A stretch of 64,000 nt of DNA from Lineolata rhizophorae. Taxonomy: Eukaryota > Ascomycota > Dothideomycetes > Lineolatales > Lineolataceae. Both the position numbers and the translations under genes were made by a program. The first letter of the stretch is position 1. Each line of letters opens with the position of its first letter. The DNA lies in the NCBI GenBank assembly GCA_010093515.1, contig MU001672.1, positions 1,190,377-1,254,376 on the forward strand, given 5' to 3'. Below are positions 30,657 through 59,031 of the stretch, piece after piece. The notes below the pieces were generated by a model that was given only the letters and a program-made list of their open reading frames with translations, did not search any database and had not been told where the DNA came from.

Positions 30657-32421
30657 ATGTTGAGAACGGCTGCAATGGCCCACCAACAACCTCCCACGCC
30701 TCCTCCTGGCAGCCACGAATTGCAGTACAATCTGCACCATGTTGCGCACCATAATGCTACCACGTCTTTCAACCAAGATGGAGAAGACCATGAACGAATC
30801 CCTCATTCAGGCCGGCCTTCGGGATTCCGCTCGCCGGTACATACAATGCACGGCTTGGGAAATCATCCGTCAAACGATCAGTACATGGGCCATTACACGG
30901 CTAGCCCGTATCCGGATCTCCAGAGCCAAGAAATCGGTCTGGGGATTGAACTCGTACGTTCAATAAGAAAGCGATGCAAGAAAAGAGCTGACCAACATTG
31001 AAGCAGAATGCTTATGGAAGCCCTGACATGGGATATTACCCAAATGAACGTCAGGCGTTCAATATGCCAGTACGAAGATGAGCAAACTAGAAAATAACAG
31101 GATGTATTTGCTAATACATCGACAGTATGTGCCACATGGCGTTCACTCGAATTCGCCGCCAACACCTCGTTCACCTACCAACAGTGAAAGTGGTAGACGC
31201 ACAAGGAGTGGTCGGTCCGCTGCGCGTACTGCATCACCAGCAGTAGAGAATAAGACGCGACCGTCTCGACCCAAGAAGACTAAGACTGGAAAGGACAAAC
31301 CGAAGACGCCAAAGTTAACGGCACCATTGAGCGAGTTGACGAAAGGCCTCACCCACATACCTGTCCGGGACATGAAAGCGTGGGTCAACCGGTCGGCCGA
31401 AGTCCGTAGACAAGAAGTCGAAAAGCGCAACGGATACATTACTAGGCCCATGAACTCCTTCATGTTGTACCGCTCCGCGTTCGCCGAACGCACGAAAGAA
31501 TGGTGTCTTCAAAACAACCACCAGATCGTCTCGTCGGTCTCGGGAGAGAGCTGGCCAATGGAACCTCCGGAGGTTCGTGAAATGTACAATGAACTGGCAA
31601 AGATCGAGAGGCTCAACCACCAAGCTGCCCATCCCGATTACAAGTTCTCGCCTAGCAAAGCGGCTACCCCAAGCAAGAAGAGGAAAGGCCTGTATTCTGA
31701 CGAGGAAGACGATGATTTGCTGAGCGACGCCGACGATGCCGATGGGGAATGGGGGCCCCCTAGTTCGCGGAGGTCCAAGGCGAAGCAAAATAAGCGGAAT
31801 GGTAGAGTGCCAGAATTCAGCCATAATGGCGTTTTGCCGTATTATCCAAGCAACCCCCATTTCGGGCCCAATATCGGGATCAACAAGTCTTCCTGGGAAG
31901 CCACCAACGAGGGCCGACCGCTTCCTCCGGCGATCGGTGAACATGAGCTTGCTCACCAGTACTACGAGACGACTGTCCACCAATCAGCTCCGGGAGTGGA
32001 AGACCTGAAGGTTCGCAAAATGGCGCATCCTGGCATGTATGAACCCAGCCCATCGCTCATCGGCATCCCTGGAGGTCAGCATCATGACCTCCTTCAGATG
32101 TATCCTTCTCACGAAGGCACGCCATTGCATTATGACTCGCATTATGACTCGCAGGTTGATCCGTTGCTCCTCAGCGGACTGGGAGGAAGCCAGTACATGC
32201 CAGGAGCTCATCCGGGTGAATTCATGGGCCACGAGAACCATGCTGTTTTCGATCGACCGACATCTAGTCTGGATCATGGGGTAGCTGCGATCAACCATTT
32301 TCATGGCAATGGCGTTCCCAATACAGACTACCATCCTGGTGACACCTGGCATCCGGATCCCTCTGTCGGCAACATAGACCAGGGTTCGGAGTTCGACAAA
32401 TGGGCGGATGACGGCCTTTGA
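30657..32421 (+). CDS. HMG-box transcription factor, MATA-type
   Basis: Three exons: 30657-30953, 31007-31069 and 31126-32421, 551 residues from the first ATG (a second in-frame ATG at 30675 starts MAHQQPPTPPPG). The first two exons are His/Pro/Tyr-rich and disordered. The third holds a basic stretch (TRPSRPKKTKTGKDKPK) and then the HMG box at about residues 223-300. The box includes GYITRPMNSFMLYRSAFAER, TKEWCLQNNHQIVSSVSGES and WPMEPPEVREMYNELAKIER; NHQAAHPDYKFSPSK closes it. This is the MATA_HMG class, which includes mating-type HMG proteins and their upstream regulators. An acidic patch (SDEEDDDLLSDADD) and a nuclear-signal-like KAKQNKRNGR follow. A nuclear regulator of sexual development is likely, by family only. 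It is not flanked by APN2 or SLA2, so it is not the mating-type locus itself. Confidence 0.87.
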
Positions 32422-50452: not shown

Positions 50453-51751
50453 ATGGATGTCCTGCAGGGCTGCTGCTTCTCCACCGCCCGCAGCGCCGGG
50501 CAATCGCCGTATGACGGCGCCGCCACCGCCACCGGCGACAACGGCGCCGTCACGGTCCCGACTCATAACCCGTTCCAGCCGCCGCACCACCACCACGCGC
50601 CCGCGGGCGACGACTCGTCGCGCGCGCACATCAACGGCCCCGCCGCCCAGCTTCACCCTCACACCACGCACACGACCGAGGAGTCCTCATCGCTGCATCG
50701 CCCCGGCAGCTTCCTCTCGCGCGCGCACTCGGGCATCGACGGCGACGGCGGCAGCAGCGGCGCCGAGACGCCCACAGGCGCCGCCGCGGGGAGCGGCGAG
50801 GTCCTGACGCCATCGTCGACGGCAAACGTGGCGTACGCCGCGCCGTCGCCGCCGCCGCCGAACCAACACCATCACCACCACCAACCGCGGCAGGAGCACC
50901 AGCCCGGGGGGACCCACCGGTCGCGCGCCCACCGCCACTCGGCGTCGCTGGCCGCCCACCAGCAGCAGCAGCAGCAGCAGCAGCCGCTATCGTACCACCC
51001 GAACGCGCCGCTGACGCGGCCCAAGCGCGCGGCGCACACACCGGGGCGGCGGCCGTGGACGCGCGCGCGGGTCCTACGCGAGCGGCGTGACTTCTTCGAC
51101 ACGCGGGTGAGCGGGCGGGCCGAGGTGTGGGCGTCGGTGCGGCTCGTGTGCGAGCTGGTGGAGCAGGGTGACGTGGGCGAGGCGCAGGGCGTGCTGGACG
51201 CGGCCGGGTGCACGTGTCCGAGCGGGGACGTGAGCAAAGGGGTCTTCGACGAGAGGGGCGTGTTTTATCAGGTGCCGGAGTGGGTGGTGGGGTGGCCGGT
51301 GGAGGCGGTGGAGGAGGGTGAGGATGAGGTTGAGGTTGGGAGCGAGAGTGAGAAGGGGGGTCCGGGTGAGGAGGAGGATGGCGAGGCGTTGATTGGGGGG
51401 GAGAGGGAGGAGAAGGGGAAGGGCAGGGCGGTCGAGGTGGATGTGGGGCCGGTGGTGAAGCTGAGGGTGAGGCTGAGCGATAGGGGGACCGATGTGCTGG
51501 TTAGTGTGGGGATGAAGGAGAGCGTGAGGGCGGTGGTGAGGAAGGTGAGGGGCATGGGCGAGGTGAGTTCCTGCTCTATCTTTTGACCCTCTGGTTTGTG
51601 CTAGCTAACTTCATTCTCCCCCAATACTATACAGATGCAGCCACACGTAAAAGTCAAACTCGTTTACATGGGCAGAGTGCTGCGCGAGAACCAGAGCCTG
51701 GAGGAACAGGGCTGGAGGGAAGGGCATACTGTAAATGCCTTCGTTTTCTAG
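50453..51751 (+). CDS. ubiquitin-domain-containing protein, UBTD1/UBTD2 (DC-UbP) type
   Basis: Two exons, 50453-51562 and 51635-51751, 408 residues. The N-terminus MDVLQGCCFSTARSAGQSPY is followed by about 170 residues rich in His, Pro, Gln and Gly, including HHHH runs and eight glutamines. The conserved UBTD N-terminal domain is at about residues 188-285 (RRPWTRARVLRERRDFFDTR, AEVWASVRLVCELVEQGDVG, EAQGVLDAAGCTCPSGDVSK, FYQVPEWVVGWP). After an acidic Glu/Gly linker, a ubiquitin-like fold begins at VVKLRVRLSDRGTDVLVSVG and is completed by exon 2 (VKLVYMGRVLRENQSLEEQG, HTVNAFVF). The Cys pair at positions 7-8 could be a lipidation site. Human UBTD proteins bind ubiquitination enzymes; the fungal role is unclear. 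Confidence 0.87.
50959..50983 (+). repeat. CAG repeat inside the UBTD-like gene
   Basis: Eight pure CAG codons in the disordered N-terminal part of the protein. Confidence 0.9.
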
Positions 51752-53890: not shown

Positions 53891-56800
53891 ATGGACTTGT
53901 CGAGGAACCGTTCTGCGGTGTCCCATCATCGCCCAGCCGCTCAAATTCCGTCCGCCTCGTCGGTTATTTCTCGCAGCACGTCGCCTGAGCCAAGTCGCGT
54001 TAACAGAATGTCTTATTCAAGCCTTCGAACTCTTCCCTACTCGAAGACATCTTCCTCTCCTCAGGAGATGCTCTTGCCTCCCTCGCGGACTCCTCCTACT
54101 CCTCCTATGAGCCTTATGCATACATCACATGATCAGGGATTCATATTTCCAGAAATGCGAAGCTCTCAAAGGCCATGCGAAATATGCGGCCTGGGCGACA
54201 AGCAGACCTTTCATTGCGTTAACTGTGACACGGTCTATTGCGGTGTCTGCTGGGATATGCAAGGACCTCACAAACCTGGGAAGGTGGGGCCGGATGGTCT
54301 TCCCCATGAGAAGGCCGACCTCAAAGTTGTCAATCGACTTCGGGAAATCCTAACCCCGTCCAATGACCCGCATATCCAGCAGGCGATGCATATGAGTGAC
54401 GAAGATACGACGTGGTTTGGGGTATCTCGCGATGCCACTGGGTCGCCGATCTTCCAGGATCACGGACGGTACAGTACACTAATGGCCGACAGTGCCAGCT
54501 TTGAACATCGGGTCAGGTACCCACAACTCGTATCATTCATTGGTCAAACTGGCGCTGGAAAGAGCACTTTGGTCAAGATGCTGATCGAGGAACAAAAGAG
54601 TCAAGTCCACCCCTCAAAACGTGTTGCATTTCCATCGCCGGTGGTTGGGTCCGCCCAGAACGACAACGTTCCCACTTCTGGAGATGTCCACCTATACGCC
54701 GACCCTGGTACATCCTTTGGCATTTGCCCCATCCTATATGCCGATTGCGAAGGGCTTGAGGGAGGCGAGAATATACCCATGGGGAACAGACACCGGTCGC
54801 ATAGCCAAGCCGATCCGAAGGATAAACCGGATATGAAACCGGAGACACACTCACCGAGGAAAAGAAACAAGATCTCTCGTTGCTCGTCTCGGGGACTGCT
54901 ATGGGCAACTGAACCAGAGACAAGGAAACGCCAATATGCTGTCACAGAACTCTATCCGAGACTTCTGTTCACGTTCTCGGACGTGATCGTCTTCGTATTA
55001 CGGAATGCAAAGTGAGTTCAATGCCGTGATCGCTTTAGAACTTCCTTGCACATACCACCCCGCTAAAGCCTTACTAATGTAAATATTAAGGGTATTTGAG
55101 TCATCCGTTCTCGGTAAACTTTTGAGATGGGCAGCTGCATCTATTGAGAAATCGGTCAACCAACCCACTCTTCCGCATGCCGTTATTGCTCTAAATGCGA
55201 CCGAAATTGGCATCGATCAGAGAGAATGGGAGGTCGAGTTCTCTACCCGATCCCTCATGGAGACTGTCGCGGACGCAGTCAGAAGGGATCCGAAGTACGC
55301 TGAGTATACAGATTTTTGGACACGTCGTGGTAAAAGCATCCGAACGATGAAGGACCTGCTCGGGTGCTATTTCTCCTCGATCACGGTCGTGCGAATCCCA
55401 AATAGAGGCGGAGGACGGTACATGCTCATCGACGAGCAAGTTGGGAAGCTCAGAAAAGTCATCACAACGAAATGTGAACTGTCCTACTACGCCAAAAGGA
55501 AGGCAAGGATGCTGTCCAGTTCAGAAGAACTGAATGTTTATCTCCAGTGTGCCTTCGACCACTTCGCCAATGACCTCGACACCCCGTTTAATTTCATTGA
55601 AGTCGCGTTCAAAAACAACCCAATTCCCTTAGATTTTGGAGGAAACATTCTGAAGCTTGCCGTAGCGATGCAGCGTGTCAATCAGTATGAAGCGCAACAG
55701 ATCTTTCGGCGACTTGCGGTCATGGTGGCTTCGTGTGTCATGCTTGACTGTGTCAGGCACAGTATCAAAGGTAAAGTGCTTCCGCTAGTTCATCCTGCCC
55801 AGCTTTGAAGCTAATTGACTGGAACTTAGGCGATCCCGGGAAAGTGCTCGAAGAGCAATACCTAGACCATTGTGACAGTGCCTTGATAGATTTCTGCAGC
55901 TTCTTTTTGCAATGTTCGTATGAGAGTCCCAGGGGCGAACGCTGCATTGTATCGCGTGAGGGACACTCTAAAGGTCACCAGAACGAAAAGGGCAAATTCA
56001 TTGGCCACGGGAATTTTTCGTCTCCCTTTTCTTTCGAGAAGTTCCAAGACGAGTGGCTCCAGCACCTCACCGAAAATATCGAAAGGTTCCAACAAAGATT
56101 GCAGGATTCTATGCACAGGAACCACCATGTTCCAGAGATTAAAGTTGCCTCACAGATTCACTTGGATTGGGTGAACGACTTCTTCCGGAGCCTTGGAGAT
56201 CCTCGGAAGTTCGTAAGTCATTCTGCTTGCTTTTGCTGCTTGCGCGAAATGCCCGAGCATCCCCTTCCCTGTGGCCATGTCATATGCCCAGAATGCGCCA
56301 AGGCCTACGCACTTCCGAAGCGAGAATGCAACATCCTACTGGACTCTTGCCCACTCCACTCCAAGGACACATTCCAAGGCCGTTACGCCATCCAGACGAA
56401 ACCGGAACTTGCTGGCGTTCGCGTGTTGACGTTAGATGGGTAAGTCAAACATCATATTTCGCACTCAATCTCCACAATGAAGATTAACTTCTTTGCAGTG
56501 GAGGGGTTCGAGGCGTTGTTGAACTGGAAATCCTTCGCGAGATCGAACGCCAATTGGGGGACAAGATTCCCATTCAAGACTTTTTTGATCTGATCGTTGG
56601 TACGAGGTAAGACTGAAACTTCACTTAGATTGGAGCATTTCCAAAGCAAAGCGTCTGCTAATCTTGCACTGTCCAAGTACTGGGGGAATCATTGCTATGG
56701 GTTTAGGTGTCGAACGATGGTCGGTCAATTCTTGCATCGAGAGATTCACAAAGCTGGTCGATAAGGCTTTCACCCCTAAGTTTGCAAGCTTGCGGCTTAA

Positions 56801-59031
56801 TATCCGGTACAAGACCAGACCTCTCGTTCAGGCCTTGCAACAAAGTTTCAAAAATGAGAATCTATTTGGAGGCCGCCGAGACGGTTACACGAGCTATCAC
56901 GCCAAGGTCGCTCTTACGAGTACCACGGAGACAGGAGATAAGCCTGTCGTCCTCACAAACTACAATAGGCAGGGGGAAATTCAGCGTAAGCGAAACAATC
57001 GTTCTTTGCAACATTTTGAAGCTTGCCGCTAAATGATCCAAAGCAATGTATGAATTCGTACGGCCAGATGACCCAACACATGAACTAAAACTCTGGGAAG
57101 CGTACGTATATGGCATCACCAGGTTTCCATTAATGACGTATTTTGCTCATTCAGCTGCATTATAGTGCCCGAGCAACTTCTGCGGCTCCGACATACTTCA
57201 AACCGTTTGTCAATGACAGGACAAACGAAGGGTATATAGATGGCGCCGCCTACTACAACAACCCGATTCGTGTTGCAGACCATGAACGCAAATTGATATG
57301 GCCTGAACTTGCCAATCAGCACCCTGACATTGTGTTATCTCTTGGAACTGGTCACAACGGCAACAGAACTAGGGGCTTCGTCGATCCTTCGTGTAGATAC
57401 TTTGGCCATGGTTCCGATGAAGATAGTGTGTCGGACACTCGATCCTTTCGCAATGCTGCCACAGGCTGGCGAAAGTGGACTCCACTACTAAATATCATGG
57501 TAAGTAGGGGAGAGAGTTTGTTGGATTCCGAGCGCGAATGGCAAACATTTCGGAACGAAAAGTTCAGTACGAATTCGACACTGGACAGTCGGCGGTATCA
57601 ACGCTTCAATCCCATGTTAAGCTCTCGAACACCGCACCTGGATGAGAAGAGCCAGGTGCCAAATTTGCAGGCTGAAGTTGGGGATCAACTCCGACGAAAG
57701 CCGCCCTATCAAACTAAGATCACACAAGTCGCTCAGAGACTCGTTGCGAGCTGCTTTTACTTTGAGAGACTCACACCAACGAAAGAGTTGGAGGACGGAT
57801 TTGCATGCGGAGGTAAGTACCTCGTAAGAATTTTAGTATTTTGTGGTTAAGCAGCTGACTAAAGAGTAAAATAGGCCGGCTTAGATGCAGATTTCCAGAT
57901 GGCTCACAAAACTTGCGCTATCTTGGGGATTACCTACGCAATCATCAAGATCCTACTTTCCAGCCCTACTTCACCGTCCAGGAGAGATGCTATCAACCAG
58001 TGAAATATGAGATTTCTCCCGATGTCGTGCATAACATGATTGTCAAGGCAACGTTCGACATGGGAATAATGGAAATACGGGTTTCCCTCCAGCAAGGACA
58101 CACATCCATCTCTTTATGCCTGCGGAGGTGGAACAGCCGATCGGTTGAGGAGCATCCTATTAGCGGGTTTCCTCGGTCCCTGGCTTTAGAGGACTTGATC
58201 AAAAATGGTTCGTGCTCCAATCATATATTTCTATTGAGACTATTCTAGCTTTCACCACGAACTAAGAATCTTCTAGTACACTCAGAACCTAAACCGCAAC
58301 CATCTTTGGACCGGCTGAGACAGAACCGACACCGCTCCTTCCGACATCGGCGCGATAATTCCCGTACTGAGATACCTCAATCTCAGCCTGACCCACAGCA
58401 GCAAGAAAATACTTCCCAGAGTTCCGGCTCACCATCCGGACGAAGTCGTAATTCCGATGAGGATAGATGGGGCTTCAATGACTGGATTCTGCGCCGTGAA
58501 CGATCCGGCCGGCCACCGATATTTGGTAACACCTTTCGACGATCGCGTGATCCCCGTCCGGCGCCCACAAATGGAGGATCTACTACTACATCTCCTGTTG
58601 TAGCGCCTGCACCCTCTGTAGCCACTTCAGGTAATACTCCTGAGCCTGGCGCTCCCAGAAATGTCTCTAGCTTTCCGCTGGCGCCTGAGCTAGAAGAGGA
58701 AGATGACCGGCAATTACGCCAAGCTATTGAACGGTCTCTGCTCGAGAGCCAAGAAGCGGCTCGTGAAGAGCGCCGCCACCATCTCGCCGCTAGAAAGGTG
58801 GCAACACTGGCTCCGCCGTATAGCGCGGAGTTACCTGTGCCAGAACCTCCTGTGAACGATCACCAAGAGCAGAGCAGGCCCAGAAGGGAAGAAGCGCCGG
58901 CAGCTCCGATTGGTGTGCAGCAGCGAGCTACTCCGGAACAAGAAGAGTACACAAGACCGAAAAGGACCGGGTCCGGCACAGACCCAGAAGAATTGGAAGA
59001 GGCCCTGAAGAGGTCTATGATTGAGAAGTAA
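53891..59031 (+). CDS. multidomain patatin-like phospholipase: zinc finger, P-loop GTPase-like, RING, patatin, two UIMs
   Basis: Nine exons: 53891-55011, 55091-55770, 55830-56439, 56499-56606, 56678-56985, 57044-57101, 57166-57812, 57875-58207 and 58277-59031; 1539 residues, all phases closing. Order: a Ser/Pro-rich N-terminus; a B-box-like zinc finger from residue 96 (CEICGLG, FHCVNCDTVYCGVCWD, H-rich tail); a P-loop at about 218 (FIGQTGAGKSTLVKMLIEE) with a long alpha/beta region after it; a RING-like finger at about 734-785 (CFCCLREMPEHPLPCGHVIC, PECAKAY). The patatin domain follows from about 802 (LDGGGVRGVVELEIL), with nucleophile Ser840 in GTSTGG and Asp987 in EGYIDGAAYYNNP. The tail is Pro/Gln/Arg-rich and bears two ubiquitin-interacting motifs (EEDDRQLRQAIERSLLES, about 1430, and DPEELEEALKRSMIEK at the very end). 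All key patatin residues are present, so lipid acyl hydrolysis is expected. Its biological role is unknown. Confidence 0.88.

Follow-up and report, generated by a model that had tools for sequence, protein, structure and literature searches.

A fungal protein family that joins a predicted GBP/atlastin-type GTPase, B-box and RING fingers and a patatin domain which has repeatedly lost its catalytic serine

Results

A single gene for the fused protein

The window analysed here is a stretch of 64,000 nucleotides from the genome of Lineolata rhizophorae (contig MU001672.1, positions 1,190,377 to 1,254,376, of the 31 Mb assembly GCA_010093515.1), and all coordinates are given within it. On its forward strand, at 53891..59031, lies a gene whose product carries a GTPase-like module, zinc-binding domains and a patatin domain in one chain. 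The features of the gene are as follows.

53891..59031, +, whole gene, nine exons, 1539 residues (conceptual splicing and database identity)
53891-55011, 55091-55770, 55830-56439, 56499-56606, 56678-56985, +, exons 1-5 (conceptual splicing)
57044-57101, 57166-57812, 57875-58207, 58277-59031, +, exons 6-9 (conceptual splicing)
54167..54307, +, B-box-type zinc finger, residues 93-139, ligands C96, C99, C109, C112, C117, C120, H127 and H139
54398..56200, +, predicted GBP/atlastin-type GTPase and helical region, approximately residues 170-724, interrupted by introns 1 and 2 (AlphaFold models of relatives, PDB comparison)
54542..54568, +, G1 (Walker A) motif GQTGAGKST, residues 218-226 (sequence, alignment)
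54743..54754, +, G3 motif DCEG, residues 285-288; D285, E287 and G288 each in 189 of 194 rows, with 5 gaps
55194..55205, +, G4-like motif NATE, residues 409-412; N409 in 192 of 194 rows, D or E at 412 in 187 of 194
55913..55978, +, CCHH site C629, C639, H646 and H650, each kept in 188-189 of 194 rows
56228..56359, +, RING of C3HC3H form, residues 734-777 (ligand spacing, family profile)
56426..57355, +, patatin domain, residues 800-1025, interrupted by introns 3-6
56605-56606 and 56678, +, codon of the nucleophile S840, split by intron 4 (conceptual splicing)
57239..57241, +, codon of the catalytic D987 (conceptual splicing, alignment)
58696..58749, +, UIM-like motif 1 (ubiquitin-interacting motif), residues 1429-1446 (pattern match, weak Pfam)
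58981..59028, +, UIM-like motif 2, residues 1524-1539 (pattern match)

Conceptual splicing removes eight introns of 58-79 bases, all of the GT-AG type, and leaves a single open frame of 1539 residues that stops at 59031. The product is identical in every letter to its top database match, BDY21DRAFT_297819 of L. rhizophorae (P0001), and these two results together confirm the intact fusion described in an earlier note on this DNA. It could be argued that the fusion is an artefact in which gene prediction merged two adjacent genes: the database record is itself a prediction, as the splicing here is conceptual, and the donor of intron 8 (GTTCGT) is unusual. Against this, the whole of the RING and the first patatin strand, through the DGGG motif, lie within exon 3. 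The only other copy of the family found in the genome (L021, contig C27:112730-116141; 28-63% identity per matched piece) has the finger, GTPase, RING and patatin in the same order, and 119 of the 120 listed database rows, the gene's own record counted, span at least 82% of the 1300 residues used as query. We regard such an artefact as extremely improbable. The matches listed are the best 120 of 541, 452 and 159, and the 194 relatives aligned below are a sample of the nearest; those named we take to be filamentous ascomycetes. Many of them, and the window protein, carry the precomputed label PF28431.

A predicted GTPase of the GBP/atlastin group

The Walker A motif GQTGAGKS that had been reported is present at residues 218-225, and the GTPase-like character attributed to this region is supported by structure prediction, with no model lacking a GTPase fold. 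AlphaFold models of the relatives P0053 (Glonium) and P0123, compared with the PDB, gave a GBP/atlastin-type fold, the matching fold group including atlastin, Sey1 and RNF112; the structure alignments have 9-14% identity. The comparison supports the placing of the predicted fold in the GBP/atlastin group of the dynamin superfamily. In that group the G3 motif is DxEG or DxQG, and an RD motif is found at G4. The family has DCEG at G3 and NAT(D/E) instead of RD at G4, the latter being placed by sequence and model strand only.

RNF112 (neurolastin) resembles the window protein in having a RING on the same type of GTPase, but its RING is N-terminal whereas that of the window protein is C-terminal of the GTPase. 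From RNF112, atlastins and GBPs alike the family differs in the low identity, in NxxD/E replacing RD, in the additional patatin and B-box domains and in the absence of a P-loop arginine (see Discussion). A prokaryotic origin of the GTPase was rejected: two peptide patterns, run against the species genomes of GTDB, gave 18 matches, none of them a relative. A viral fold library returned mostly patatin matches, plus giant-virus atlastin-like and GBP-like rows (E 1.4e-5 and 7.3e-5); going by their names, none of the 50 rows shown is a fusion.

Zinc-binding domains

The N-terminal zinc finger noted previously proves to be of the B-box type. As an isolated piece it scores 26.4 bits against a Pfam cut-off of 24.1, and within the whole-protein scan 19.1 bits, under the cut-off; eight of 11 family pieces match the B-box at E ≤0.1. 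The CCHH site between the GTPase and the RING had been overlooked in the first reading. For the RING, all eight zinc ligands are present (C734, C737, C748, H750, C753, C756, C774 and H777) with RING-type spacing, C-x2-C-x10-C-x-H-x2-C-x2-C-x17-C-x2-H. At the eighth position His replaces the classic Cys, which occurs there in just four of 194 rows. The zf-C3HC4 model is matched at E ≤0.1 by 12 of 13 family RING pieces (best 1.7e-5), the exception being the window piece, whose best Pfam score is 16.0 bits against a cut-off of 27.3, with weak scores for other RING models. The ligands and the family matches support the proposed RING-like finger at the level of the sequence profile.

Amongst solved structures, the RING profile of the family best matches the RINGs of TRIM34 (E 2.9e-4) and TRIM5 (E 7e-4), and the B-box profile those of TIF1-beta and Midline-1. 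Membership of the TRIM proteins was nonetheless rejected, as the order RING, B-box, coiled coil is not found: the B-box (93-139) precedes the RING (734-777) by about 600 residues, with the GTPase in between.

Variable C-terminal tails

Two C-terminal UIMs had also been claimed, and this stands in part. Both motifs fit the UIM consensus, and the strict pattern occurs in the tails of 16 of the 120 listed relatives, where shuffled tails give an expectation of 0.185, and nowhere in the 145,492 residues of the remaining protein parts. Thirteen of these 16 rows fall in the 27-row clade that contains the window protein. On the other side, UIM-like tails are in the minority, Pfam gave only a weak USP_UIM_N match to motif 1 (E 0.056, below the cut-off) and did not report its UIM model there, and motif 2 had no Pfam match. 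Other tails are seen elsewhere: precomputed Pfam labels place SPRY in five lichen-fungus rows, two of them also with ankyrin, and SH3 in one Geoglossum row (together P0035, P0039, P0040, P0046, P0060 and P0064). The lichen-fungus SPRY members, having the B-box and RING too, contain the main parts of a TRIM protein. Some species have several copies, for instance Annulohypoxylon maeteangense (P0032, P0080, P0113).

The patatin domain and its relation to CapV

Patatin is the only domain above the Pfam cut-off in the full-length scan (residues 800-999, E 5.8e-23, 82.5 bits against 27.7). The oxyanion motif DGGG (D803-G806), the serine of GxSxG (S840) and the aspartate of the DG dyad motif (D987) are all present, in agreement with the patatin core and both dyad residues that had been read from the sequence. 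The patatin fold and the dyad are shared with CapV and CapE, bacterial CBASS phospholipases; a sequence search of the PDB ranks CapV first (E 6.1e-18), and the NCBIfam CBASS_lipase model is matched at E 2.6e-30. Membership of the CBASS CapV lipases was rejected, the score for NF041079 (105.7 bits) falling short of the cut-off of 200, and unlike CapV and CapE the window patatin belongs to a eukaryotic protein of 1539 residues. The filaments of CapV and CapE are their active form, and PDB entries show both enzymes as ligand-bound filaments.

Repeated loss of the lipase serine

Of the 194 aligned relatives, 106 have Ser as the nucleophile, while 43 have Gly at this position, 27 Asn, 16 Asp, one Arg and one a gap; S840 and D987 are both kept in the window protein and 96 others. 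For the tree, four rows that misread the serine column or were short (P0005, P0017, P0031, P0071) had been removed from the first version, and these and P0241, P0243, P0247, P0271, P0294 and P0296 from the 184-row version and the comparisons. The patatin serine is absent in 84 of these 184 relatives, with GTPase and RING retained. On the 184-row tree, built with FastTree without the trait's own columns and having several long branches, the distribution of Ser and non-Ser requires 14 changes, or 23 Ser-less clades if only loss is allowed. Some of the single-row losses may be annotation errors, since intron 4 splits the serine codon in the window gene and a few relatives have misread splice sites there. 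One clade of 27 rows, including Zymoseptoria, Cercospora, Fulvia and Zasmidium, is uniformly Gly. A row recorded as Quercus suber (P0083) nests in the fungal Gly clade and is probably a fungal sequence in the oak assembly.

The 84 Ser-less rows keep the ligands of the other domains: K224 in 80 (four gaps), D285 in 83, and the RING residues C734, C737, C774 and H777 in all 84. D987 remains in only 53, and the oxyanion and elbow glycines G805, G806, G838 and G842 in 83-84; because these glycines persist, the patatin fold seems to be kept without catalysis. At the protein level, in four clades picked after inspection of the tree, the mean pairwise identity of patatin against GTPase was 0.709 versus 0.702 and 0.775 versus 0.785 in two Ser clades, and 0.723 versus 0.804 and 0.773 versus 0.878 in two Ser-less clades. 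Since GTPase and RING are kept in Ser-less rows, and GTPase identity there exceeds that of patatin, the alignment says that these two domains would be under constraint without lipase catalysis.

Relation to fungal NLRs and genomic neighbourhood

NLRs of the PLP-1 type, also from filamentous fungi, likewise have patatin and a nucleotide-binding domain in a single chain. The window protein differs from them in having a GBP/atlastin-type GTPase and not NB-ARC, in the position of patatin in the C-terminal half, in the RING and B-box, and in that no TPR, ankyrin, WD or HEAT repeat family was found in it at E up to 5. Membership of the fungal NLRs was rejected (11.9 bits for NACHT at E 0.2, where the cut-off is 26.7; NB-ARC not among the matches; fold placed with GBP/atlastin). 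So was the patatin gene of ToxhAT, which in the available text of PMC6737239 is of the patatin-TPR NLR type, a different architecture. Podospora has nine patatin genes outside the NLRs, which may or may not belong to the present family, and each of two bacteria raises the expression of five of them (PMC4835503, available part); no P. anserina row is among the family matches listed.

Ten open reading frames of the window were scanned. Two had no match, and the others gave Pre-SET, a sub-cut-off COesterase, La, an HMG box, a sulfate transporter, UBD and two MFS pieces, none of which is a domain of mobile elements or of defence. The upstream gene on the same strand (50453-51583, +) encodes a protein with the ubiquitin-binding UBD domain (PF16455, E 2.1e-29), and the HMG-box protein (PF00505, E 1.7e-10) lies at 31048-32418 (+). 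Carriage by a Starship was rejected, all 11 DUF3435 matches found being on contigs other than that of the window (C3); three lie on the contig that carries the second copy (C27), more than 300 kb away from that copy.

Discussion

The gene structure, the order of the domains, the conserved residues for nucleotide and zinc binding and the recurrent losses of the patatin nucleophile describe a conserved fungal protein family, built from known kinds of domain and, as far as our searches show, undescribed. A search of the literature by title and start of abstract found no paper on a GTPase-RING-patatin fusion, which is weak evidence of absence. In the available text of the fungal-immunity reviews and the NLR survey, patatin is named as an NLR effector and the words 'GTPase' and 'dynamin' do not occur; nor do 'yeast', 'fungus' or 'fungal' in that of a review on GBP conservation (PMC9005921).

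On balance, we think it somewhat probable that this family of filamentous ascomycetes, which unites a GBP/atlastin-type GTPase, a B-box, a RING and an iPLA2/CapV-type patatin, uses GTP-driven assembly to switch the RING and the lipase. Clustering is a common means of activating both RING domains and CapV-type lipases, so that such an assembly could switch on ubiquitylation and lipid hydrolysis. To judge from the fold, binding of GTP would lead the GTPase module to form dimers or polymers, probably at a membrane. The RINGs would be brought together, and by the precedent of RNF112 might ubiquitylate the protein itself or a membrane target locally. In members with an intact Ser-Asp dyad, such as the window protein, clustering may also activate phospholipid hydrolysis, in the manner of the CapV and CapE filaments, and the UIM-like motifs, where present, could tether the protein to ubiquitylated material. 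The earlier note had proposed a single switch ending in attack on membrane lipids; this fits the window protein but not the family, given the 84 of 184 relatives without the serine.

A number of points weigh against a GTP-driven switch of this kind. The fold was modelled on the relatives P0053 and P0123, not on the 1539-residue protein, and the long structural matches reaching into the helical region have a high root-mean-square deviation. The window RING is below the Pfam cut-offs and is the lone piece of 13 without a zf-C3HC4 match. The arginine fingers of GBPs and atlastins are at P-loop positions, and so is R195 of RNF112. Arg at residues 219-222 is found in none of the 194 rows, and because the P-loop Arg is missing, the protein may stimulate its own GTP hydrolysis in another way or not at all. 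No C-terminal CaaX box was seen, the window protein ending SMIEK. The available text of PMC12012479, which gives R195 as the arginine finger of RNF112, also reports that its E3 ligase and GTPase activities are unrelated to each other, and the proposed coupling of GTPase and RING is thereby weakened.

Defence, incompatibility and membrane quality control are all compatible with the family. The patatin domain could be its true output, as a GTPase-gated killing phospholipase of heterokaryon incompatibility that works in the manner of the NLR PLP-1; the RING would then serve only to set the protein level. The patatin-NB-ARC-TPR protein PLP-1 does kill in allorecognition, with patatin activity required (PMC12881547), and genes up-regulated in Podospora incompatibility are enriched in patatin genes (6/9; PMC3689799), both according to the available parts of these papers. 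Within the family, half of the rows (97 of 194, the window protein included) keep S840 and D987, and in both Ser clades compared the conservation of patatin is close to that of the GTPase. Set against this are the Ser-less relatives, with an all-Gly clade of 27 rows amongst them, in which GTPase and RING stay; the grouping of the nucleotide domain with GBP/atlastin GTPases and not STAND NTPases; and the ten scanned reading frames of the window, which have no HET or NLR domain. We consider a dedicated killer phospholipase rather unlikely.

Similarly unlikely, in our estimation, is a housekeeping E3 ligase of membrane remodelling or organelle quality control, akin to RNF112 and atlastin, in which patatin would be a lipid-binding module and sometimes still an enzyme. 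The shared fold group of atlastin, Sey1 and RNF112 and the persistence of the four patatin glycines in 83-84 of the 84 Ser-less rows are what such a protein would have. Its tails would not be expected to vary between lineages as the UIM-like, SPRY, ankyrin and SH3 tails do, nor its copies to multiply as in A. maeteangense; these two features look more like those of a recognition family than of a housekeeping gene.

For the GTP-driven RING and lipase switch, a role in cell defence or quality control is a guess by analogy. It is conceivable, if doubtful, that the family is a fungal counterpart, in one chain, of the GBP/TRIM/RNF213 cell-autonomous defence of animals, forming a GTP-polymerised coat which ubiquitylates on foreign or damaged membrane and in some lineages hydrolyses lipids through its CapV-like domain. 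If so, loss of the serine with the E3 core kept would represent lineages trading lysis for ubiquitin tagging. A widespread GTPase-RING-patatin family would add a second, non-NLR architecture in which lipase and ubiquitin control are placed under a nucleotide switch. The repeated loss of the serine is in effect a natural experiment on what goes with the lipase and what stays, and offers a testable split between a GTPase-E3 core and an optional lipase.
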